Notes under the pieces: generated by a model
Seen by the model: the letters and a program-made list of their open reading frames with translations, nothing else
Databases searched by the model: none
What the model was told of the DNA's origin: nothing
NCBI RefSeq assembly: GCF_000614105.1
Contig: NZ_BAKH01000005.1
Span: 1 to 64,000 of the forward strand
DNA: 64,000 nt
Direction of reading: 5' to 3'
Origin: Prevotella micans DSM 21469 = JCM 16134
GTDB lineage: Bacteria; Bacteroidota; Bacteroidia; Bacteroidales; Bacteroidaceae
Shown here: in pieces, positions 1 to 60,149 of the stretch
How positions within the stretch are numbered: the stretch's first letter is position 1
Layout: every line of letters starts with the position of its first letter
Translations under genes and position numbers: made by a program

Positions 1-165
1 CGCAGACACTCTGTGACGAAAAAACAAAAATGATTTTCGGCCGCAGACACTCTGGGATAGAAAAACAAAATTGATTTTCGGCCACAGACACTCTGGGACG
101 GAAAAACAAAAATGATTTTCGGCCGCAGACACTCTGGGACGGAAAAACAAAATGATTTTAATTCA
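1..165. repeat. 41-bp tandem array (about 4 copies, enters from left edge)
   Basis: Units start at 1, 42, 83 and 124, an exact 41-bp period. Each has a GCAGACACTCTG core, a GGGACGG-type block, an A-rich run and TGATTTTCGGC. The last unit decays after about 160. The first unit sits at the window edge, so the array probably continues to the left. It ends 16 bp before the start codon at 182, so it occupies the promoter or leader of that gene. No variable spacers are present, so it is not CRISPR. Confidence 0.9.
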
Positions 166-10396: not shown

Positions 10397-11110
10397 AATG
10401 CCAGATCGGATATGCTCGCTATTCCGATGCCGTTACCCCCAAACGATCATTAAAAAGACGTGCGTTCGGCTTAAGAATCACGATAGCATCGCTTCTTGGT
10501 AAACGGACATCATAACATAAGTCTCATAGGGATGACACGGACTCTCTACCGTACTCATTGTGTTCTCATAATTTGAGGATTGCCCTGCCCACCTACAGCC
10601 TGTCGCCCCCTTCGAGATTCTATGAGTTGCGCGTTTATTTACACAAAGATTGCGCCTTATCGGACTTTACCGCCAGCTTGTAATCTATCGCCTCTCCCAA
10701 GCCTACCTGGAACGGTAATCGTTCTCTCAACGAAACAGCAAGTGTTGACTCGACGAAACAGCAATCATCCTCAATCTAATCGACATTTGTCGTTTAGGTT
10801 AATCGGCATTTGTCGTTTAAGTTGGTCGACGTTTGCCATTTAAGTTAATCGGCGTTTATCGTTTAAGTTGGTCGATAACTACTCTTCGCCAGTATTGACG
10901 GAACCCCGAAGGGGTGGCGAGACCACAGGCAGGCGGTAGAGCGACAGCAGAACCCCTGCAACTCACACCATCAAATAGAGAGCCACGAAAGGGCGACGGA
11001 CTCCCCAAATTATACCCATTCCGACGCCCTTTTAGTCGCAAAAGAATATCTTTACACTCCGAATCCTCATTCAGAGAAATAGACACAACTTCAAATAACA
11101 AACAAAGAAC
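10397..11110. other. Long intergenic gap inside the ompH cluster
   Basis: About 700 bp without a convincing gene. The only clear structure is the 23-bp tandem array at 10778-10878. A short related motif (CGAAACAGCAA) occurs twice just before it, at about 10731-10765. Open frames on both strands are short and lack start context or family resemblance. Confidence 0.6.
10778..10878. repeat. 23-bp tandem array (4 units plus a partial)
   Basis: Units start at 10778, 10801, 10824 and 10847, with a partial unit from 10870: an exact 23-bp period. The unit has the form (AA/GG)TCGRCNTTTGYCGTTTAAGTT. Unit ends alternate between TTAATCGG and TTGGTCGA types. The CGACATTTGTCG core is weakly dyad-symmetric. 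Confidence 0.85.
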
Positions 11111-20830: not shown

Positions 20831-20920
20831 CGGGAGAGTACTAAACTTTCTGCGCAGAAAGTTTAAATTAGATGCGCAGAAAGTTTGAACTTGGTGCGCA
20901 GAAAGTTTTACCGACTCCCG
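20831..20920. repeat. Nested palindrome and 22-bp repeat element
   Basis: A perfect 24-bp palindrome (20842-20865) centred on TGCGCA is followed by two more TGCGCAGAAAGTTT half-sites, so half-sites start at 20851, 20873 and 20895, a 22-bp period. The whole is bracketed by CGGGAG (20831-20836) and CTCCCG, which can pair as an outer stem. It lies between the start of the U32 gene (123 bp away) and the end of cdd, within a gap of about 300 bp that holds nothing else clear. Confidence 0.85.
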
Positions 20921-28319: not shown

Positions 28320-28613
28320 CCAAATATTATGTCTTTCTGCAAGTGAATATCGATATAAAACATACTCAATATGTATTTCTGCAAATGAATATTGACACAA
28401 ACCATACTCGATATGTATTTCTGCAAGTGAATATTGACACAAACCATACTCAATATGTATTTCTGCAAGTAAATATTGATATAAAACATACTCAATATGT
28501 ATTTCTGCAAGTGAATATTGATATAAAACATACTCGATATGTATTTCTGCAAGTGAATATTGACATAAAACATACTATGATGTATTTCTGCAAGTAAATA
28601 TCGACATAAAATA
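28320..28613. repeat. 42-bp tandem array (7 units)
   Basis: TTTCTGC anchors fall at 28334, 28376, 28418, 28460, 28502, 28544 and 28585: five exact 42-bp steps and a last one of 41. Each unit contains AATATTGA...TCAATATG-type inverted arms around ATAAAACATAC. Variation is limited to a few positions. The first and last units are the most diverged. It sits between the promoters of two divergent genes. Confidence 0.93.
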
Positions 28614-36843: not shown

Positions 36844-36883
36844 ATTAGAGTATCAGGGAAATTTCAGGCATTGAGACGCACAG

Positions 36884-36980
36884 TTTCGTCCTATGAAACG
36901 CAGGATTCCATCCTATGAAACCGTGCGTTTCATAGGATGGAACGCACAGTCTCAAAGCATGAAATCTTCTTGAGACTCTT
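36884..36980. repeat. Inverted-repeat cluster around TCCTATGAAAC
   Basis: Arms at 36906-36921 and 36927-36942 are a perfect 16-bp inverted repeat with a 5-base loop. A third copy of the TCCTATGAAACG core lies at 36889-36900, and ACGCACAGT occurs before and after the hairpin (36876-36884, 36942-36950). A further GTCTCAA/TTGAGAC pair lies downstream. There is no T-run, so it is not an ordinary terminator. Confidence 0.8.
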
Positions 36981-44695: not shown

Positions 44696-46309
44696 TTATC
44701 TGTTGTTTTTCATCTTCAGAAGGCACTCATGCAGTGCGCGTCTGGCCTCCGAACTGTTTTGAGAGAAGAGACTCGGCTTGTAGAGTACGCCTATTTGAAG
44801 CACGGGCTTATTGTTATTTATGTCGGAGAACTTATCGCCTTTTATTGCGAGCACTAGCTTGTCGCTCTTGCGCCCGTAGACATGAAATTTGCCACTGCTC
44901 TCAATGAACACGAAGCCATTTGCTTTCAGAAGGCTATCGAACTGGCGGGTGATGTCCCAATTATTTCCATTTTGCCACACGCCCAGTGTGGGAGTGTCGA
45001 AATTTAGCGTGTATTGCTCCACGCTACCTATCTTCGAGTTGGAAATTTGCGGACTATTGCTCTTGGAATAGAAGAAGTAGCTCCTATTTATGAGCGGATT
45101 GCGATTGGTGTTGAACGACAAGGCCTCTATTTCGCCATTTTCGTTGGTATGCTTGGCCATCAAGCTGCTTCCTTGCGAATTTTCCCAGGCTTCGACATCG
45201 GACGACTTCTTACTATCGTTATTTAAGAGTTCTAGCGGACCGAGGTTCAGGGTTTCAAACGTCGGATAGTCCTGCTGCTGTGTGCGCACCTGGTTAAAAA
45301 AGAGCACGACGCTATGGTTCGATTCGAGAATGTCTATTCGCATGGCTTGTTTTTCAAGCTCGCTAACATAGATATTCGTGTCTTGCTCACTTCTCACATA
45401 TCCGCGCTCTGCAAGATAGGCTTTGAACTCGGGCGAGCGAACCGCTTTTATTCCTTCATCGGTAAACGAACGCGTGAAAACTCTCGTGGCCACTCCGGTT
45501 CGCGTGTCGTGAACATAATATATGTCCTTGAAGAGCGGTGAAGTGGTGTGAAAGTAAAAACTTTCTTCCGTGAGGTCGAAACTTGCGTCGGGCGCGGCAT
45601 ATTCGGCGAGTATGCTACCTCGACGATGCTCAAAATCCATCATTTTATAGATGTCGAACGGTGTACCTGGGTTGCATGCCAGAATGAAAAGTGATATGCC
45701 CGGTTGGCGAACGATTACTTCAGCCGTTTTTCCACTGCCTACGAGTGCGAGCTTGGCAACACGGTCGTTGGTGCTGCGGTTTACAGGTGCAACAAACTTC
45801 ACGGAGTGTTTTTTGGGAATCACGGTGAGCCAGTCGGCCGTTTCGGTTTTCTTGATTTCATAGCCCGACAGGTTGGATGTGATATATGCCGTTACGTCGC
45901 CACCCTTTTGTGGTAACAGAACCTCACCGCCTTCGATTCCGAGAGTCGCGACGGCTGCAGCTTGCGAAACCGTGATTTTTTTTACGGCTCTGCTGGCATT
46001 GAGAATGATATAAGTTTTGCGAATTTCGCCCGTGACGTTCTCTTTTGCCTTAACTACGAGCTTTCCGGCACTCTTTTCGAGTGAGAGCCAGCTTCCTTCG
46101 GCTGGCGAAGAGGGCATCCAGTCGGCAAGATTGGTTTCAACGGTAACGATTTTCTCTCCTGCACTCTGCTCGAATGCTAATTCGGTTTCGGAAACCGCAA
46201 ACTCGGGCTGCACAACCTCAGCTGTATCCGAACATCCGGCAGCTGCAAACAATAAAACAAAGAATGATGCAGCCGCGAGTAAGCGGTTTTTATTAATGAG
46301 TAGTTTCAT
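44696..46309 (-). CDS. BACON-domain lipoprotein (second of a tandem pair)
   Basis: A 537-residue predicted lipoprotein (lipobox FAAAGC, Cys26). Residues about 35-115 and 120-205 are BACON-type Ig-like domains (WMPSSPAEGSWLSLEKSAGK, GGDVTAYITSNLSGYEI). The C-terminal 330 residues are shared with the upstream gene, including NPGTPFDIYKMMDFEHRRGS and FFYSKSNSPQISNSKIGSVE. BACON domains usually bind mucin or glycans on the Bacteroidetes surface. It is separated from its paralogue by 5 bp and from the S8 protease by 12 bp, so all are one transcript. Confidence 0.8.
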   Translation of the reverse strand: MKLLINKNRLLAAASFFVLLFAAAGCSDTAEVVQPEFAVSETELAFEQSAGEKIVTVETNLADWMPSSPAEGSWLSLEKSAGKLVVKAKENVTGEIRKTYIILNASRAVKKITVSQAAAVATLGIEGGEVLLPQKGGDVTAYITSNLSGYEIKKTETADWLTVIPKKHSVKFVAPVNRSTNDRVAKLALVGSGKTAEVIVRQPGISLFILACNPGTPFDIYKMMDFEHRRGSILAEYAAPDASFDLTEESFYFHTTSPLFKDIYYVHDTRTGVATRVFTRSFTDEGIKAVRSPEFKAYLAERGYVRSEQDTNIYVSELEKQAMRIDILESNHSVVLFFNQVRTQQQDYPTFETLNLGPLELLNNDSKKSSDVEAWENSQGSSLMAKHTNENGEIEALSFNTNRNPLINRSYFFYSKSNSPQISNSKIGSVEQYTLNFDTPTLGVWQNGNNWDITRQFDSLLKANGFVFIESSGKFHVYGRKSDKLVLAIKGDKFSDINNNKPVLQIGVLYKPSLFSQNSSEARRALHECLLKMKNNR

Positions 46310-46314
46310 GATTC

Positions 46315-47937
46315 TTATCTCCCGGTTGTTTTGCGTGCGGCTTTGCCCGACAGAAGATTTTTCAGAGTCGGTATGCCTCTCTCTGCGCTTCCGCTGGCTG
46401 CTGCATCGCCGTAGTTGAAGAGGAGAGCCAAAACTGTTTCGTCGTCGTCCTTTATGGGCGTAACAGCTATGCGTAAATGGTCGTACGAACGAATGAAGAA
46501 GTGTTTGTTTCCCGAACTGCTGTTAAATTCGAAACCCTCTTGACCTAAGAGCTCCTTAAATTCTTCGGTTACGTGCCAGTCGGTGCCGTTACGCCAGAGT
46601 CCAAGGTTCACATTCTTAAATAGGAGCACTCCGGTTTCCACACTTCCGATGAATTTTGCATCTACGGGCACTTTCGGATCGGTTGTGAAGAAGAAATAAG
46701 CACGGCCGTAGAACGCATCTGTGCTTCCGGCTTTCATTTTGTATTGCATGATGGAAACCTCTGAGGTATTTATTTCGCTCATCGTACGGCTGACGAGTGT
46801 ACTTCCGGCTGCGGTTTCGTAGGCAACAACCGCGGGCTCTTTCTTATTTTCTTTTCGGAGCAATTCCAGGGGGAAGTACGGCATGGCTTCGAAAGTTGGG
46901 TATTTTTTGTCTTGCTTGAGGAACGGACGGAAGGTTAAATTTACTCCTTCGTTACCCTCTCGCTCTGATATTGTGACATTCAGAGTCAATCCGGCACTCT
47001 CGTTCACAAAATCTTTCGCAGAATTGGCGTTTACACGTCGGTAGCCGTTCTCTTCAAGGAAACGCTCGAATGCTTTGTCCTTGCAGGCGTTAACAGCAAT
47101 CATTCCGTCGCCTACGGTTGTAATTCCGGAGGGCACAACTCCGTCGTAGCTGCTGTATTCAATGAGCTTGAAGATTGGAGATGCCGTTACGAACGTGTAC
47201 ATCTCGGGCATGCCGAAGTTGGGATAGGCTGCCTGGTAATTTCGGAGATAGCTGCCGCGCGAGAGCTCGAAATCCATCATTTTGTGGACGCTCATGGGGT
47301 TTCCGGGATTGATTGCAAGAATGTATTTTAAACGGCCCGACTGTGCGACAACAATTTCCTTGGCCTTTTCGCCACTCCTGGCGTATAACTTTACGCTTCT
47401 TGCTCGCTCGGTGTTATTCGCTTCGGCTCGGAGCTTCACATCTTCGTCGTGTTTGTCGATTGTGAGCCAGTAGGTTGTTTCTTCCGGCACGATTTCGTAG
47501 GAGGTGGCGTTTGTTGTAATGTCAACTGTTCGTTCGCCGCCAGTCTGTGGCATGTATATAGTGTCGGGAATAACGTCAAGTGTAATGTCGGCCGCACTCT
47601 GAGTAACTTCCAGCTTTGCCGAAGCTCCGCCGGCGTTAACAAGAACGTAAGTTTTTCGCTCTGAACCACGGGTGTTCTCAAGAACTTTGATTTTCAGAAC
47701 ATTTTCCTCGCTCGTTACTGCAAGCCAATCGCCTTCTGCTGGCGATGAGGCAATCCAGCTGGCTTGGTTAGTGGTTATTGTAACGGTTTTTTCACTCATG
47801 CCTTTATCGAAACTCATTGCTGTTTCCGATAAAGTAAGCGTGGGCTCGTCGAACCCGTCTTCTTTTGTGCACGATGCTGCAAGTGCAATTACGCCACCAA
47901 GAAAAATTGGCAACGATTTCCTGATAAAGTGTTTCAT
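46315..47937 (-). CDS. BACON-domain lipoprotein (first of a tandem pair)
   Basis: A 540-residue lipoprotein (Cys23 in IALAASC). It has the same order as its neighbour: two BACON domains (WIASSPAEGDWLAVTSEENV, PQTGGERTVDITTNATSYEI) and a large C-terminal domain with NPGNPMSVHKMMDFELSRGS. The two proteins are clearly paralogous but diverged, so the duplication is old. The conserved MMDFE(L/H)xRGS block in the C-terminal domain is a useful family marker that I do not recognise as a named domain. It heads the operon. Confidence 0.8.
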   Translation of the reverse strand: MKHFIRKSLPIFLGGVIALAASCTKEDGFDEPTLTLSETAMSFDKGMSEKTVTITTNQASWIASSPAEGDWLAVTSEENVLKIKVLENTRGSERKTYVLVNAGGASAKLEVTQSAADITLDVIPDTIYMPQTGGERTVDITTNATSYEIVPEETTYWLTIDKHDEDVKLRAEANNTERARSVKLYARSGEKAKEIVVAQSGRLKYILAINPGNPMSVHKMMDFELSRGSYLRNYQAAYPNFGMPEMYTFVTASPIFKLIEYSSYDGVVPSGITTVGDGMIAVNACKDKAFERFLEENGYRRVNANSAKDFVNESAGLTLNVTISEREGNEGVNLTFRPFLKQDKKYPTFEAMPYFPLELLRKENKKEPAVVAYETAAGSTLVSRTMSEINTSEVSIMQYKMKAGSTDAFYGRAYFFFTTDPKVPVDAKFIGSVETGVLLFKNVNLGLWRNGTDWHVTEEFKELLGQEGFEFNSSSGNKHFFIRSYDHLRIAVTPIKDDDETVLALLFNYGDAAASGSAERGIPTLKNLLSGKAARKTTGR

Positions 47938-48068
47938 CTTGAACTGTTTAATTTTTTTGTAATATTCCTATAGCTTTACTCCCTATTCTATGAAGATTTT
48001 TCCTGTTGCTCTGCGCACATCCCAGGTTTATAATCAAAATTTCTAACTCGTGTGGAGAGCAACGCAGG

Positions 48069-48076
48069 CAAAATTA
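48069..48076 (-). promoter_or_regulatory. Possible -7 box of the BACON/S8 operon
   Basis: TAATTTTG on the minus strand fits TAnnTTTG. It is about 130 bp upstream of the first ATG, which would leave a long leader. No -33 match was found. Confidence 0.35.
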
Positions 48077-48204
48077 ATGTTTTGTAAACATCTTTTTTCA
48101 TCTTGAATGACTTTTCTGAACAAAATACCTACTTATTATGTGCCTCGAATGCTATAAAAACCCAAAATCACTCATAAGCACTCATCGGCTGTGTTTTCAT
48201 TCTA

Positions 48205-48375
48205 GTAGACTGCATTCATGTAGCCTGCATAAGTGGTTTCTTGACGAAATAATACGGTCATGCAGCCAGCATAAGTCGCTGAAAATTAAAAGGATATATT
48301 CATGCATCCGACACAAGTGGTTTCTTGACGAAATAATACGGTCATGCAGTCTTCACAAATGGTTTATGATGATTT
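48205..48375. repeat. 42-bp tandem array downstream of the DUF6261 gene
   Basis: Anchors (TGTAG/TGCAG/TGCAT) fall at 48219, 48261, 48303 and 48345, an exact 42-bp period. A 35-bp segment is identical at 48231-48265 and 48315-48349, so units alternate and the higher-order period is 84 bp. A unit aligns with the upstream array at 49515-49800 at roughly 60% identity by eye. The array lies in the 550-bp gap between the BACON operon start and the DUF6261 stop, where no gene is seen. Confidence 0.88.
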
Positions 48376-48491
48376 TTTTGCAGAGAATTGGAGTCCGAGA
48401 CCCTCATTTTTAGTGATTTTCGGTGGGGTGTTACATGAAAAAGCGGAGACAACCTCCAAGAAGTGCCTCCGCCAAGCATATGAACAAAAAA

Positions 48492-49331
48492 TCAAATTTT
48501 GTCTTCCCCAGGGTCTTCCTCCCGACCTGGTTTTTGTTTGTCGTCGGGCTTCTTCTCGGGCTCCTTACCTTCCGGCTTTTTGTTTTTTCTCTTTTTCGCA
48601 GCCTTCCTCTGTGCAATACTTTCATTGCGAGAGAGCTTGATCTCATTGCTTACCACGTTTAAGCCATCGATGAGGTCGGAGATGAGGTGTTGGTCTGCCT
48701 CATTTGCAGCATAAATCAGAGACGCTTCGATGTGGGAATAGACTTTTTCAATCATTTCGTCATTCTCCTTGCGCACATCTCTGCTTTTATTGATAACGTG
48801 GAGCTTCTTGCTGTCTGCACGCCTGGAAAAAATCATTTCGAATTCCTCATTCTTTGCCTTCAAGACATCAATCGCATAACGAAGATCGAGAGCCGCAATG
48901 TGCGGAACTAGCTCCGGCTTCTCCAAATCGATGAGCAGCCCCTTCACCGTCTGCGTTTGGAGGGTTGTGTTTTCTCTCTGGATGTTCTTGTAAGTGTCAA
49001 CAATGAGCTTCAATCGCACTCCTGCTTGGTGCTTCTCTGCTTTAATCGACTTAATTCCCTGTCTGATGTCGCCAAAGAGCGATGTCAACGCTCTCGAACG
49101 CGCATGGTCAATGTGATTGAGCTTCGCCGTGTCTTCAGAAGCCACAACTGTTCGCGCCGCATCATCCTCATAATCGATTCTTTTCCTCCATTCGGCCATC
49201 TCCTCTGGAGTCAACTTGATTTTTTCGGGAGCTACAGTGCTCACAAGTTTAAAAACTCTGTTCTGCATCAATGCGTGCAGTCCGATGGTTAGCGTTGAAC
49301 CGCTAATCCGCTTAATTTTCTTGTTCTTCAT
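48492..49331 (-). CDS. DUF6261 family protein
   Basis: A 279-residue cytoplasmic protein without signal peptide. Residues 1-235 are helical (TIGLHALMQNRVFKLV, DIRQGIKSIKAEKHQAGVRL, EKVYSHIEASLIYAANEAD) and match the DUF6261 layout seen in Bacteroides and Prevotella. Residues about 240-279 are a low-complexity Lys/Glu/Pro/Asp tail (KKRKNKKPEGKEPEKKPDDK), a shape typical of nucleic-acid or protein scaffolds. It stands alone, flanked by 42-bp arrays of related sequence on both sides. Function unknown; the repeat context hints at an array-binding role, which is inference. Confidence 0.7.
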   Translation of the reverse strand: MKNKKIKRISGSTLTIGLHALMQNRVFKLVSTVAPEKIKLTPEEMAEWRKRIDYEDDAARTVVASEDTAKLNHIDHARSRALTSLFGDIRQGIKSIKAEKHQAGVRLKLIVDTYKNIQRENTTLQTQTVKGLLIDLEKPELVPHIAALDLRYAIDVLKAKNEEFEMIFSRRADSKKLHVINKSRDVRKENDEMIEKVYSHIEASLIYAANEADQHLISDLIDGLNVVSNEIKLSRNESIAQRKAAKKRKNKKPEGKEPEKKPDDKQKPGREEDPGEDKI

Positions 49332-49514
49332 TGTTTTTCTAAATGAATTTTTCAGTTAATGAATACTATTGATTGCCTTTTTGTGTCAAGTGGCGATTCT
49401 TTTAGTGAGCATGGCTCCAAAAATTCGCGGTTTTACATGACGTGCCAAAGAAGGCCGTTGAATAAAGGTTAGTTACTCCACTCTTGAAATGGTCTGCTGT
49501 GCAATTCGAGCCCT

Positions 49515-49800
49515 CGTTTCGACTTGTGCAGTGTGCAGAAGTGCTTTCTGTAACCATTTTTCGACTTGTGCAGTGTGCAAAAGTTAAATCTAGTTCACAT
49601 TTCCGACTTCTGCAGTGTGCAGATGTTAAATCTAGTTCACATTTTCGACTTCTGCAGTGTGCGAAAGTTAAATCCGATTCACATTTCCGACTTCTGCAGT
49701 CTGCATGAGTCATTTCTTGGCTGAATTTTGCGGTTATGCAGTCTGCACGAGTCATTTCCTGGCTGAATTTTGCAGTTATGCAGTGCGCACGAGTCTATTC
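49515..49800. repeat. 42-bp tandem array upstream of the DUF6261 gene
   Basis: TGCAG anchors lie at 49527, 49569, 49611, 49653, 49695, 49737 and 49779: seven units at an exact 42-bp period. The core TGCAGT(G/C)TGCA is near-palindromic. The first five units have a CGACTT(C/G)-type left end and the last two a GGTTATGCAG form like the array at 48.2 kb. Thus the array grades from one subtype to another without losing phase. Confidence 0.93.
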
Positions 49801-50298
49801 GCAGTCCATTTTTGGGGTTTCGGAGACGGAAAGAGCTGTTTCGAAATCTCGTTTTACGCTCTCATAGTGGGAGAGAGTCGTCTCGAAGGCTAGTTTTCTG
49901 CATACGGAGAGGTTTTAAATGATTGTGAGGGTCTACTACTGCATCCGTAGCTAAAAACAAGTTGATTTAGGCTCCTGATTCCCGCTCTCTGCGTGAGAAC
50001 AAGCGGAAACAGTCTCTTTTTTTCCGTTCTCCGATAGAGCATGAGTGTCATTCTGTAAGTTGTTTTTGCGGTCAGAGAGGAAGAGTGTCCAATAAAGAAC
50101 GTTTTTCACTGTCATTGAGTGTCCATCTCCTCCGCTGGTTATATAGCTTCATATCTCTGTGCCGTGAGAGTATTTTTTTTATTCTATTTCCCAAGTTCAC
50201 TCTCGTCTGCTTGCAAAGATAGGGAAAATTGTGATATGGTGGCGCCAGACAAGCATTAAATTTTGATTTTTTCTCATCGGTCGAATTCTGCATGAATC

Positions 50299-50337
50299 AA
50301 AAAAATGTCTGTCAACGATTCACATCGTCTGACAGAC
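50299..50337 (-). terminator. Terminator hairpin of the candidate small RNA
   Basis: GTCTGTCA (50307-50314) pairs with TGACAGAC (50330-50337), and ACGAT pairs with ATCGT around a TCAC loop, with one bulged base. On the minus strand it is followed by seven T residues. Confidence 0.75.
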
Positions 50338-50456
50338 TGAAAAGTATCAATAAAAATGTTATTTAGGGATGATAACGAATTCTTTCCAAATAAAAGATGA
50401 ATACGAATGGCACGCCTGCCTATCAGAAACAAGATGATACTTCACAGCATCGTGCC
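50299..50456 (-). ncRNA. Candidate small RNA (about 158 nt)
   Basis: On the minus strand, TACTTTTG (50465-50458) matches the -7 box and is followed by a region that ends at a terminator hairpin with T7 (50299-50337). The 5' end can fold: GGCACG (50456-50451) pairs with CGTGCC (50414-50409), enclosing TATCA...TGATA. No open reading frame is evident. It does not match an RNA family I can name; expression is unproven. Confidence 0.4.
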
Positions 50457-50457
50457 A

Positions 50458-50465
50458 CAAAAGTA
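50458..50465 (-). promoter_or_regulatory. -7 box TACTTTTG before the candidate small RNA
   Basis: An exact TAnnTTTG match on the minus strand, ending just before the GGCACG stem that would form the RNA 5' end. A -33 TTTG is not evident. Confidence 0.4.
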
Positions 50466-50593
50466 GAAAAAGCGGATTAAAAACCACAGATGCAGTCGTC
50501 GTATATGGAAAATTTTTTCTGTATTCCATTCATGTTCCGGTTACGAGGGCTGGCCAGTTCAATTTTTCGACTTGTGCTCTTTTAGTGAGTGGC

Positions 50594-50628
50594 AAAAAAA
50601 TCTCGCCGACGATTCACATCGTCGGCGA
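50594..50628 (-). terminator. Terminator of the HmuY/TonB-receptor operon
   Basis: An 11-bp perfect stem (50603-50613 with 50618-50628) and TCAC loop, followed on the minus strand by seven T residues. It lies 70 bp after the last stop codon. Its CGATTCACATCG apex is shared with the hairpin at 50299-50337. Confidence 0.88.
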
Positions 50629-50697
50629 AGAACAAAATGAAAAACTTAATATCATTTTTGGAATTAATCCATTTCAAAGAATCAAGATAAAAACGTA

Positions 50698-51600
50698 CTA
50701 ATCATATTGAGAAATTTCCCGTCGGAGTTTTCTCCTTGATGCTTTGAGCCACAAATATACAAAAAGTGCGATAAAAACCACAAGTATAGTCACCATCTGC
50801 GGTATATAATGTTCAGGTTCCACCCATATTTCGGTAAAGAAGTTCATCCGACCGAGAATTTCCACAGGTGTCCAGAAAATGATTACTGTCGCGATGGCCA
50901 TTCGGATGTTTGCACCCCACGACCCAAGGTAAAGTTGCCTCTTAAACATGAAGAGCGAGCCGATGAGGCAGCCTATTCCAACAATAAAGGTTACGGGATG
51001 ATGGTCGCCCAGGAAATTTTTGTCGTAACAGAACATAAGGAGTAAGTACATGGCCCATAATATCATATTTAACTCCATAAACGTAACGATTGAGGTGTGT
51101 CTTGTCATTGGTTGAGGAACTATTTCTGCTCTACGACTGCGAAATAACTTCTTTTGAATCCAGGTGATGAAGTCACAACCGTTCTTTGTGCTGAAGATAT
51201 ACATTGTCATAACCATCATCCACATTCCAAACGACGCCGGAAGGATTAAATACTCCGGCTTGGTTACAATTTCACCATTCTCAATCTCCGGCTGCACACC
51301 GAACCTGCGGGCATAATACATAAAAAGGAATTCAACCCATCCGGTCCAGAACAAAAGTCCACCGAAAAATCCCCAGAGCGTTTGTCGAGTATCGCTTTTT
51401 ACGAACACTCCGACGATTACCATGAGTAAACCTGCCAATCCCATGAAAAATGCAGCGTAGTGCATTGGTCCGGGAGTCATAAATTTTTCCATGAGAATCA
51501 TCAGTGCATGCCCAAGAGGCATCGAGAAGAGTACGATTGTGAATGATGCAATGGTACGCCACCAAAATTTTTTCTTTTTTGTGTTGTGTTCTTGTTCCAT
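50698..51600 (-). CDS. Polytopic membrane protein of the HmuY-type locus
   Basis: A 300-residue protein with about seven hydrophobic helices. The ATG at 51600 (MEQEHNTKKKKFWW) puts a basic segment before the first helix; the frame is open 23 codons further upstream, which would overlap the receptor gene. Segments include LGHALMILMEKFMTPGPMHY and a C-terminal basic tail. It follows the TonB receptor by 13 bp and closes the operon. It may be a family specific to these receptor loci; I do not recognise a named function. Confidence 0.7.
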   Translation of the reverse strand: MEQEHNTKKKKFWWRTIASFTIVLFSMPLGHALMILMEKFMTPGPMHYAAFFMGLAGLLMVIVGVFVKSDTRQTLWGFFGGLLFWTGWVEFLFMYYARRFGVQPEIENGEIVTKPEYLILPASFGMWMMVMTMYIFSTKNGCDFITWIQKKLFRSRRAEIVPQPMTRHTSIVTFMELNMILWAMYLLLMFCYDKNFLGDHHPVTFIVGIGCLIGSLFMFKRQLYLGSWGANIRMAIATVIIFWTPVEILGRMNFFTEIWVEPEHYIPQMVTILVVFIALFVYLWLKASRRKLRREISQYD

Positions 51601-51613
51601 AAGTGCTTTTATC

Positions 51614-53572
51614 TTACTTGAATAGCTGGTCGACATCGAGAGATAGACCCAGCATGAAATTTGCGCCATCAGTGAGCGGACAGTTGAGATAATAGTAGCT
51701 AGGTTTGTAATTCAGTACGTTGTCGACTGCCGCTGTGAGCTTTGCAAACTTACGGATTCTTGCTGCAACCGAGAATTTCCAAAGCGTGTATGGGGGATAG
51801 TGAACTGACACAAGTCCTTTCGACACGTCATAATAATCAACATACTCCTTATTGTCTACTGCCGAGAGTATTCTTCCGTCAAGTGCGATGCACAGCCCCA
51901 GATTTTTATTCAAATTTTTGTCCCAATCGGTATGCACGACTATCGAATGTTTCCGTGCGGGGATGTATTGATTGTTCACCTGTGCTCCCTGTTTGTTTTT
52001 GGGCAGTTGTTCGTGCGTAAAAGCATAAGAAATTCGTGCCGAAAGGCCGCATTTCCACCGCGCCTGTGCTGTCGCTTCTGCTCCGAGGGCAGAGTATCCG
52101 GCCAAGTTTATGTATGGAAGCCTTGGAAGGCGGTCGGAGGGGGTGGCGAAGTAGGGTGCACCGGCTGCAATCTTGTCGTCCACTCTGTTGTAGTAGGCAC
52201 ACACGGTTAAATTGTAGGGGTTACGTGTGTATTCGGCCGAAATATTGAAATTATGGCTCACCTCCGGTTTGAGCGAGGGATTTCCTTCGACAATCCAGAT
52301 ACCGGACATGTCGAAGTTGTAGTATTTCTCTTTCAAAGTTGGTGAGCGGAAGCCCATTCCATAGCCTAAACGAATGTTGAGATTTCGGCGGGGGCTGTAG
52401 CGAGTGCTTAATTTGGGCGTGATTCGTGAGGAGCGACCGTCGGAAAAGTAATCATAACGCAAAGCTCCCACTAATTCCCACTGCTGCCCCAGATTCATAT
52501 CATATTGTGCGAATGCATCGAACGAATCCTGTATTTTCGTTGAACCGTTTAGCCGGTTGTTGAATAAGTAGTCGTGCAAAAAATCGGCTCCGATTGAGAG
52601 CAGGTCATCGCCGACGAGCATTTTGTTGTATAAAACTCGGAATGAGTTCTGAACATTTGAGTATCCGCGGATGTCGAGACGAGTTATTGCCTGGTAGTCC
52701 GACTTATCATACTGGTCGAAAGCATATGCACCCTCGATATAATCGTTTTCTGCAATTTGCCATTGCGCTCTCACACCTCCAGAGAAATCGCGATAGCGTT
52801 CTTTCGTGCCTGGAGTTCGCTCCACCTGTCTTATAAAATATCCAGCTCGGCCTGTTAGTATCAGCTTGCTTATCGGTGTGAAGGTAAATTGCTCTTTCAC
52901 ACTTGTTACATCGTCGCCATAGATTGTTGAGATGACTCGTGTGATGGGCTGGTTTGCGTTTTTGACATTATAATTGTCTATTGTGTTACGACTGAGTGTC
53001 AGCAAGTTTGTGAATTTGCCGGATGCGAACTGCAGCACAGCTCCGTTGCGCCATTCTTTGTGTCGTGCGATACGCGAGTTTAGATTCAGACCGAATTTTT
53101 TGGCTCGTTCCTTGGTAATAATATTTATTACGCCTCCGTTTGCGTTTGACCCGTAGAGCGCAGATGCTGCACCTTTTATTATTTCGATTCTCTCGACATT
53201 TTCCATTCCTATCCTGGTGAAATCAACGTCGTCCATAGTCTCACCGGCCAGTCGCTCGCCGTCTATAAGTACAAGCATACTCTGCCCGCCAAAGCCCGAG
53301 AAATTAAAATGCACTTGCTGATTCATAGCATATGAAAACTCAACGCCCGGAATGACTTGTTGAAGTAGGTCGCGTAGATTCGTGGCATCGGTTTTCTGAA
53401 GGTCGGAGGCCGTGATTACTTTCGTAAGCACCGGAGCGCTAGAGAGCAGTTTGGGGGTGCGGGTTCCGGTAACAACAACCTGCTCCATCTCTACGGAGTC
53501 GAGCATTTCTTGTGCTTGTAAGGCTGTTGTGCATAGCAGGACTGTGGAAAAAATCGGTATGATTCTATTCAT
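51614..53572 (-). CDS. TonB-dependent receptor (HmuR/BtuB-like)
   Basis: A 652-residue outer-membrane receptor. The signal peptide ends at TALQAQ, and a TonB-box-like EMEQVVVTGTRTPK follows. The plug domain (LRDLLQQVIPGVEF, VERIEIIKGAASALYGSNA, GGVINIITKE) leads to a 22-strand barrel ending GLSLDVDQLF. It sits directly downstream of an HmuY-like lipoprotein (6 bp), the arrangement of haem-uptake hmuYR loci. Haem or a related metal chelate is the likely ligand, inferred from this context. Confidence 0.9.
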   Translation of the reverse strand: MNRIIPIFSTVLLCTTALQAQEMLDSVEMEQVVVTGTRTPKLLSSAPVLTKVITASDLQKTDATNLRDLLQQVIPGVEFSYAMNQQVHFNFSGFGGQSMLVLIDGERLAGETMDDVDFTRIGMENVERIEIIKGAASALYGSNANGGVINIITKERAKKFGLNLNSRIARHKEWRNGAVLQFASGKFTNLLTLSRNTIDNYNVKNANQPITRVISTIYGDDVTSVKEQFTFTPISKLILTGRAGYFIRQVERTPGTKERYRDFSGGVRAQWQIAENDYIEGAYAFDQYDKSDYQAITRLDIRGYSNVQNSFRVLYNKMLVGDDLLSIGADFLHDYLFNNRLNGSTKIQDSFDAFAQYDMNLGQQWELVGALRYDYFSDGRSSRITPKLSTRYSPRRNLNIRLGYGMGFRSPTLKEKYYNFDMSGIWIVEGNPSLKPEVSHNFNISAEYTRNPYNLTVCAYYNRVDDKIAAGAPYFATPSDRLPRLPYINLAGYSALGAEATAQARWKCGLSARISYAFTHEQLPKNKQGAQVNNQYIPARKHSIVVHTDWDKNLNKNLGLCIALDGRILSAVDNKEYVDYYDVSKGLVSVHYPPYTLWKFSVAARIRKFAKLTAAVDNVLNYKPSYYYLNCPLTDGANFMLGLSLDVDQLFK

Positions 53573-59739: not shown

Positions 59740-60149
59740 AGATAAGTGTGAGAAAACCTGCTTTTCACACAAGCATCTTAAGTTCCCTGTGAGAAAACTC
59801 TGTTGTTACACAGAAATCATAAGTTCCTTGTGTAGCAACAGTGTTGCTACACAGGGAATATAAGTTCTTTGTGAGGAAACACTGTTGCTACACAGAAACC
59901 GTAAGTTCCCTGTGAGAAAACACAGTTGTTACACAAGCAGTTTAAGTTCTTTGTGTAGCAACAGTGTTGCTACACAAAAACCGTAAGTTCTCTGTGAGAA
60001 AACACCGTTGTTACACAAGCAGTTTAAGTTCTTTGTGAGAAAACGCTGTTTCTACACAAAAACTATAAGTTCCTTGTGTAAAAATATTATTGTTACACTA
60101 TCTGTTTAATCTCTTTGTGCAACACAATATATTTCTAGGGTTATCCTCC
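59740..60149. repeat. 41-bp tandem array with alternating dimeric units (10 copies)
   Basis: Anchors (AGTTCYYTGTG) lie at 59740, 59781, 59822, 59863, 59904, 59945, 59986, 60027, 60068 and 60109: a strict 41-bp period over about 410 bp. Each unit carries a dyad core; in two units it is perfect (GTGTAGCAAC, 3-base centre, GTTGCTACAC). Unit tails alternate between AACCGTA/AACTATA and GCAGTTTA types from 59863 onward, giving an 82-bp higher-order period. The array lies between terminators of two convergent transcripts, in an 850-bp gap without genes. Confidence 0.94.

Follow-up and report, generated by a model that had tools for sequence, protein, structure and literature searches.

A DUF6261 gene and an upstream array of 41/42-bp tandem repeats as a conserved module in Prevotella micans and other Bacteroidota

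RAYT genes occur together with repetitive extragenic palindromic (REP) sequences and bacterial interspersed mosaic elements (BIMEs), so that one gene family and dispersed short palindromic elements share a genome. In sopC (parS_F) of the F plasmid, twelve 43-bp tandem repeats with 16-bp inverted repeats are bound by ParB_F (SopB) (PMC6238139). BrickBuilt of Porphyromonas gingivalis likewise consists of intergenic tandem repeats in a Bacteroidota species; it differs from the arrays described here in being a minisatellite MITE (miniature inverted-repeat element), and the text of its description mentions neither a 41-bp/42 bp repeat nor DUF6261 (PMC4596501). Here we analyze a stretch of 64,000 nucleotides from Prevotella micans DSM 21469 = JCM 16134 (contig NZ_BAKH01000005.1, positions 1 to 64,000; hereafter the window), in which a gene of the DUF6261 family (PF19775) is preceded by an array of 42-bp tandem repeats. 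It is near certain that a DUF6261 gene and its upstream 41/42-bp array form one conserved module, whose action we do not assign to any tested system; the module fits none of them, as ToxIN, ParABS, and RAYT each fail on tested defining features. No description of a DUF6261-array or comparable 41/42-bp system was found in the literature searched, most subscription journals being outside its coverage, and within that literature the statement in a first-pass annotation of this DNA that no described system resembles the locus is borne out. DUF6261 is named there in one paper, on daptomycin resistance of Streptococcus oralis.

The window gene (48492..49331, minus strand) encodes a protein of 279 aa with a Lys/Pro/Asp-rich tail ending KPGREEDPGEDKI, predicted by a weak model to be all-helical. 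Its initial label as DUF6261 was correct: in a Pfam profile search the protein matches PF19775 at 105.3 bits (curated cut-off 27, E 3.7e-30), DUF6261 is the sole Pfam family matched, and a profile search of the contigs of the same genome finds a single DUF6261 match on the window contig. Upstream, seven 42-bp units with no strand assigned occupy 49515..49800, with their edge 184 bp before the DUF6261 start codon. The best lag identity of this array is 0.88 over 82 bp, compared to a maximum of 0.49 among 500 shuffles, and Tandem Repeats Finder reports it as well. Downstream, four degenerate 42-bp units (48205..48375, no strand), partly related to the upstream array, give a weaker signal, with a best lag identity of 0.60 where 500 shuffles reach at most 0.49. 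Both arrays noted by the first-pass annotation are therefore real, each beating all 500 shuffles, while the relation that it saw between them shows in only part of the upstream array, the outer half. Aligned copies of the two arrays are 62-69% identical over 61 nt and a second relatedness test of all upstream units against the downstream array gives p 0.002; in a consensus-unit test against the downstream unit, however, the upstream-array half nearer 49800 scores p 0.0002 and the other half p 0.51, so that the inner half is not detectably related. Rfam has no match in window positions 46000-52000, and a plasmid DNA search returned none.

An upstream array is the rule for the family, and the downstream array of the window is an exception. 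The genome from which the window comes (G000; a 2.42-Mb assembly of 107 contigs, the window being contig C103 and its locus L025) has 33 DUF6261 profile matches, two of which are halves of one gene, leaving about 32 loci; 30 were examined, and two matches (on C68 and C36) were left out. When lags of 15-60 were scanned without a preset period, each of the 27 loci whose upstream sequence reaches 240 bp or more had a best lag of 41, 42, or 43, at identities of 0.60-0.99. The remaining three lie at contig ends with less than 160 bp upstream, and one of them, L010, shows a partial array by eye. Across genomes we ranked loci by profile score rather than by arrays and applied a uniform rule, which counts an array within 700 bp at identity 0.60 over 82 bp, takes the best lag among 15-100, and requires at least 250 bp of upstream sequence. 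L083 (a second piece of the L075 gene) and L232 (below the family cut-off and reading as a histidine kinase) were dropped, as were L009, L010, L022, and L074 for short upstream sequence; L007 also fails the 250-bp requirement. By this rule 82 of 94 loci, in 40 genomes, have an upstream array (25/26 in the own genome, 11/12 in the genus, 26/29 in the order, and 20/27 further loci in three copy-rich genomes from a single other genus), and every upstream match at this identity has its best lag at 40-43 or its double, with no other within 15-100. Downstream arrays are found at 4 of 97 loci (L025, L080, L102, and L157), two of which lack an upstream array; where downstream and upstream arrays of the same gene were compared (L025, L008, L157, and L091), they are related only at L025, the window locus.

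The association extends beyond the order, where an array of the same identity precedes 5 of 8 loci, with a weak lag-42 signal at two more and none at one. A 42-bp array also lies upstream of the DUF6261 locus of Hoylesella saccharolytica JCM 17484 and of a Parabacteroides distasonis plasmid gene annotated as a DUF6261 family protein; L227, a further locus from the family to which the window genome belongs, has no array. DUF6261 itself is present in 10 of 59 other genomes of the genus and 47 of 392 others of the order, and an additional phylum sample yielded a match in 11 of 393 other genomes, one of them below the cut-off. The linked arrays, as we call those upstream of a DUF6261 gene, comprise about 3 to 14 copies of the 41/42-bp unit.

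Comparison with other genes shows a clear enrichment, the check that the first-pass annotation had proposed. Against the 82 of 94 DUF6261 loci, an array within 700 bp upstream is found at 24 of 638 non-DUF6261 genes of the own genome (including 21 of the 144 with a gap of at least 300 bp) and at 3 of 514 in genomes without the family, even though control genes were scored at lags 40-43 only, a choice that favors matches. The corresponding counts are 18/283 in G242, a genome with 38 DUF6261 genes that belongs to another family of the order, and 2/279 in 20 other family-bearing genomes. The view of the gene and its arrays as one unit thus stands for the gene with its upstream array, but not for bracketing by two arrays as a design. 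We also rejected a genome-wide feature unrelated to DUF6261, since arrays are rare beside other genes and nearly absent without the family: nine family-free genomes (seven from the genus of the window genome, one from its family, and one from another family) together yield a single intergenic array in 747 kb. Promoters can be altered by tandem repeats, and the arrays often end near the start codon (median distance 98 bp), as would be expected if they were ordinary, copy-number-variable promoter repeats that tune expression, a by-product of slippage in which the protein has no part. This explanation, which we find quite improbable, leaves unaccounted for the restriction to one gene family across the phylum, the period of 40-43, the near-constant upstream side, and the near absence of arrays without the family. 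The motif TAnnTTTG is about twice as frequent as in shuffled sequence, whether before the array or between it and the gene.

Many units contain a dyad, for example at 49522..49542 in the window, with 9-bp arms, a 3-bp spacer, and one arm mismatch in this copy; the consensus dyad of the locus has the same arm length and spacer. Among linked units present in no fewer than three copies, arms of at least 6 are found in 13 of 23 of the own genome (1.8 in shuffles) and 20 of 47 from other genomes (2.5 in shuffles), or 33 of 70 overall; they are also found in 14 of 45 solitary units of the own genome (4.1 in shuffles), solitary arrays being those without an adjoining DUF6261 gene. Where both sides of an arm pair have changed, pairing is kept in 22 cases and lost in 12 for linked arrays, and kept in 21 and lost in 12 for solitary ones; between related arrays, with pairs counted in both directions, it is kept in 10 and lost in 2. 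In L005/L051:16475, L006/L057:14550, and L018/L062:7662 the backbone persists while most of both arms has been replaced jointly. Mismatched arm pairs in linked arrays comprise 43 G-T, allowed in sense RNA, and 52 A-C, allowed in antisense RNA (44 and 39, respectively, in solitary arrays). That the arms change together with no G-U bias favors a symmetric double-stranded DNA site over RNA. A structured sense RNA is likewise unsupported, as the sense strand is the more stable in only 23 of 64 arrays and neither strand has a G-U bias.

The same results bear on a type III toxin-antitoxin-like role, in which the array would be transcribed and cut into 41/42-nt RNAs that silence a DUF6261 toxin. The layout at the 82 loci does resemble that of ToxIN, CptIN, and TenpIN, in which short tandem repeats, for the most part unique to the gene they precede, stand immediately before a lone protein gene (PMC5086642). 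Fewer than 40 bp separate array and ATG at 13 of 85 loci, where all or part of the array is probably transcribed, and terminator-like sites between array and gene exceed the shuffled expectation (8/85 loci compared to 1.4). A terminator is nevertheless required by definition in such systems, according to the same source (PMC5086642), and is present at only those 8 of 85 loci, the 13 loci with less than 40 bp included in the total. In addition, no match to a toxin of the ToxN, CptN, or TenpN type was found in Pfam or PADLOC among the proteins scanned, the dyads resemble double-stranded DNA sites and lack the G-U bias and sense-strand stability of an RNA, and the many solitary arrays in two genomes would be unexpected. 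We consider this role clearly unlikely.

Those solitary arrays make up most of the intergenic arrays of period 40-43 in the own genome, of which there are 53 in 849,790 bases including the window (6.24 per 100 kb). G242 has 23 in 400 kb (5.75 per 100 kb), and all four DUF6261 genes inside that sample have an array upstream; 20 other family-bearing genomes, each sampled by one 20-kb stretch, have 2 in 400 kb (0.50 per 100 kb). Arrays that may lie in reading frames were set apart (4/27 in G242, 2/55 in the own genome, and 3/6 in the other sets). Arrays accompany the DUF6261 family, and their richness is no simple function of gene number. Eighteen of the 45 solitary arrays of the own genome match one of its linked arrays, compared to 1.4 expected from equal samples of the arrays of other genomes, and solitary and linked arrays are equally homogeneous. 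A shared non-DUF6261 gene family next to the solitary arrays was rejected, as the neighbors show no common family; where genes flank both sides, 15 of 38 solitary arrays lie between convergent genes, compared to 28 of 132 long gaps in general.

A selfish or mobile cassette would account for some of this: array and gene would spread jointly, and the solitary arrays would be their non-autonomous offspring, like the REP sequences of RAYT genes. A DUF6261 genome does have one gene family and dispersed short elements, linked and solitary arrays share unit types in the own genome, and in the duplicated pair L019/L020 the similarity spans array and gene and ends at the stop codon, its other limit being the contig end at the start of L020. 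Partial DUF6261 matches (L040:15419-15658 and L047:483-809; the profile search recovers one of the two), moreover, adjoin two solitary arrays, whose unit type is that of an intact DUF6261-linked array. The arrays nonetheless differ from REP sequences in being tandem with a fixed period, and most paralogues have a unit of their own. Closely similar proteins stand beside unrelated arrays, contrary to joint movement, and the array flanks share a REP-like repeat that is separate. No match to a transposase or integrase was found among the proteins scanned, including no Y1 transposase domain in Pfam, NCBIfam, or PHROGs, and no terminal repeats or shared ends were seen. With the window protein or a close-paralogue profile as query, a phage collection gave no match, viral contigs none that was confirmed, and plasmids one record. 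We therefore hold a mobile cassette to be improbable, and the suggestion of the first-pass annotation that the repeats are mobile ends finds little support. The REP-like repeat (L042:4865-5104 and relatives) has 34 of its 53 matches, itself included, within 600 bp of 41/42-bp arrays, a zone covering 8.6% of bases; it also occurs downstream of many DUF6261 stop codons and probably represents an independent element found in long intergenic gaps. In G242, only 2 of the 38 DUF6261 genes lie within 1.72-2.58 Mb, a region around the point, at about 2.4 Mb, where the GC skew switches; with a Rayleigh p of about 0.08, we do not claim an origin-side bias of these genes.

We tentatively favor, at somewhat less than an even chance, a DNA-binding, centromere-like mechanism for the gene-array module, in which binding is predicted. 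A length of 41/42 bp corresponds to four turns of B-DNA. The helical DUF6261 protein would bind the unit dyads as a symmetric multimer, the four-turn period would place all bound copies on one face of the DNA, and the array would nucleate a regular protein-DNA complex, as the 43-bp repeats of the F-plasmid centromere do. Located before the gene, the array could serve as an autoregulatory operator of its own DUF6261 gene, while at solitary arrays of the same unit the protein may find additional sites from which to bridge or mark the chromosome or to control neighboring genes. Array DNA would turn over and homogenize much faster than the gene, in a satellite-like manner. Binding of the repeats by the DUF6261 protein is compatible with the dyad evidence, and the likeness to sopC lies in tandem repeats of about four helical turns with inverted repeats, here of 41/42 bp with dyads in many units. 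In contrast to sopC, the DUF6261 array precedes its gene, up to dozens of different arrays occur per genome, and units are mostly private to each gene; no ParA ATPase or ParB-family protein was found at the window locus, where the window gene and its four nearest genes were scanned.

Several observations weigh against this mechanism. Twelve of the 94 loci lack an upstream array at threshold; four of these (L021, L160, L161, and L182) still show a lag of 42 or 83 at 0.56-0.60, and the other eight show no signal. No arm of at least 6 is present in 37 of the 70 linked units, and the excess in solitary units of G242 is small (4/22, compared to 1.2 in shuffles). None of 22 solitary arrays of G242 matches a linked array, with 8 linked arrays compared for its 38 genes. 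Six copy-rich genomes (DUF6261 matches: 33 in G320, 18 in G146, and at least 9 each in G266, G414, G234, and G387) contain 1 array in 120 kb, sampled as one 20-kb stretch each, which makes both this mechanism and the satellite-DNA reading considered below slightly less probable. No known DNA-binding domain was found in the DUF6261 proteins scanned, by profile libraries and fold comparison. At a fixed period, most genes have a unit sequence of their own: among the linked arrays of the own genome (27 genes, one array per gene), only 4 of 351 pairs are related at a score of at least 22, on a scale where 99.9% of shuffled pairs do not exceed about 18. No co-variation of protein and array sequence was found within this genome by a Mantel test, in which array and protein similarity do not correlate (rho -0.04, p 0.74, n 26), and L017 and L019 encode proteins that are 81% identical beside unrelated arrays. 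As array similarity does not follow protein similarity, either specificity would have to shift very fast or spacing rather than sequence would be recognized.

A fixed spacing with mostly unrelated sequences, and unrelated arrays beside near-identical proteins, would also be expected if the protein, or machinery that it recruits, were an array maker that creates and homogenizes tandem copies of arbitrary DNA with a 41/42-bp ruler. The high array density in two gene-rich genomes and the similar homogeneity of linked and solitary arrays agree with this proposal. Dyads and paired arm changes, however, are unexpected for arbitrary DNA, the recurrence of unit types in the own genome suggests that particular sequences are copied or targeted, six other gene-rich genomes have few arrays in short samples, and no nuclease or recombinase domain was found in the DUF6261 proteins scanned. 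We assign the array maker a low probability.

A bolder form of the DNA-binding mechanism, which we regard as rather unlikely, is a bacterial satellite-DNA system: array-binding proteins throughout the phylum, each with its own fast-evolving, self-homogenizing, centromere-like satellite ahead of its gene, whose arrays would organize or segregate the chromosome. Many solitary copies would then lie on the chromosome in some rich genomes, and four-turn spacing alone would be conserved, with protein and satellite evolving as they do at eukaryotic centromeres.

The AlphaFold model of the DUF6261 protein was built from two sequences and has a predicted local distance difference test (pLDDT) score of 67; this weak model has no Foldseek hit to a solved fold at E 0.001. 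Its best VIA match (Z 9.2) is to designed helical bundles, and the fold matches generic helical bundles. YicC endoribonuclease rows in the fold comparison reach Z 7.0-7.6, a level common for helical bundles. The peptide GREEDPGED, encoded at window positions 48495-48530, forms the C-terminal end of many paralogues in the own genome, after a variable Lys/Pro repeat tail, and looks like a docking tip; in L026 the frame stops early and the peptide is encoded in another frame. In L005, L008, L016, L021, L022, L084, and L114, a second region replaces or precedes the tail, with a shared SGSLSF-like pattern followed by WV-I recognized by eye, and forms strands in a low-confidence structure model.

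Three further 41/42-bp arrays of the window have no neighboring DUF6261 gene: a solitary 41-bp array at 1..159, sharing its unit family with the solitary array L061:9643; a solitary 42-bp array at 28328..28611, of the unit family in L046:19609; and a solitary 41-bp array at 59747..60119, between convergent genes, of the unit family in L064:4008. A second class of tandem array, of period 22-23 (and 44-46), is found throughout the own genome, in L031-L070 and at window positions 10777-10875, 20851-20908, and 36872-36921. The four genes nearest the window DUF6261 gene encode two BACON proteins, one protein without a Pfam match, and one TonB-dependent receptor. The BACON-domain genes (44696-46309 and 46315-47937) adjoin one another, encode 537 and 540 aa with lipoprotein-like starts, and are apparently a tandem duplicate.

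Through this association a family of unknown function becomes part of a module whose other component can be tested, and a spacing held at 41/42 bp while the sequence is free amounts to a strong geometric rule across several Bacteroidota orders. If the protein binds the arrays, some genomes would contain protein/satellite pairs by the dozen, all paralogous, and so provide a natural experiment on the co-evolution of DNA-binding specificity and tandem repeats, and the module may represent a new layer of chromosome organization or gene control.
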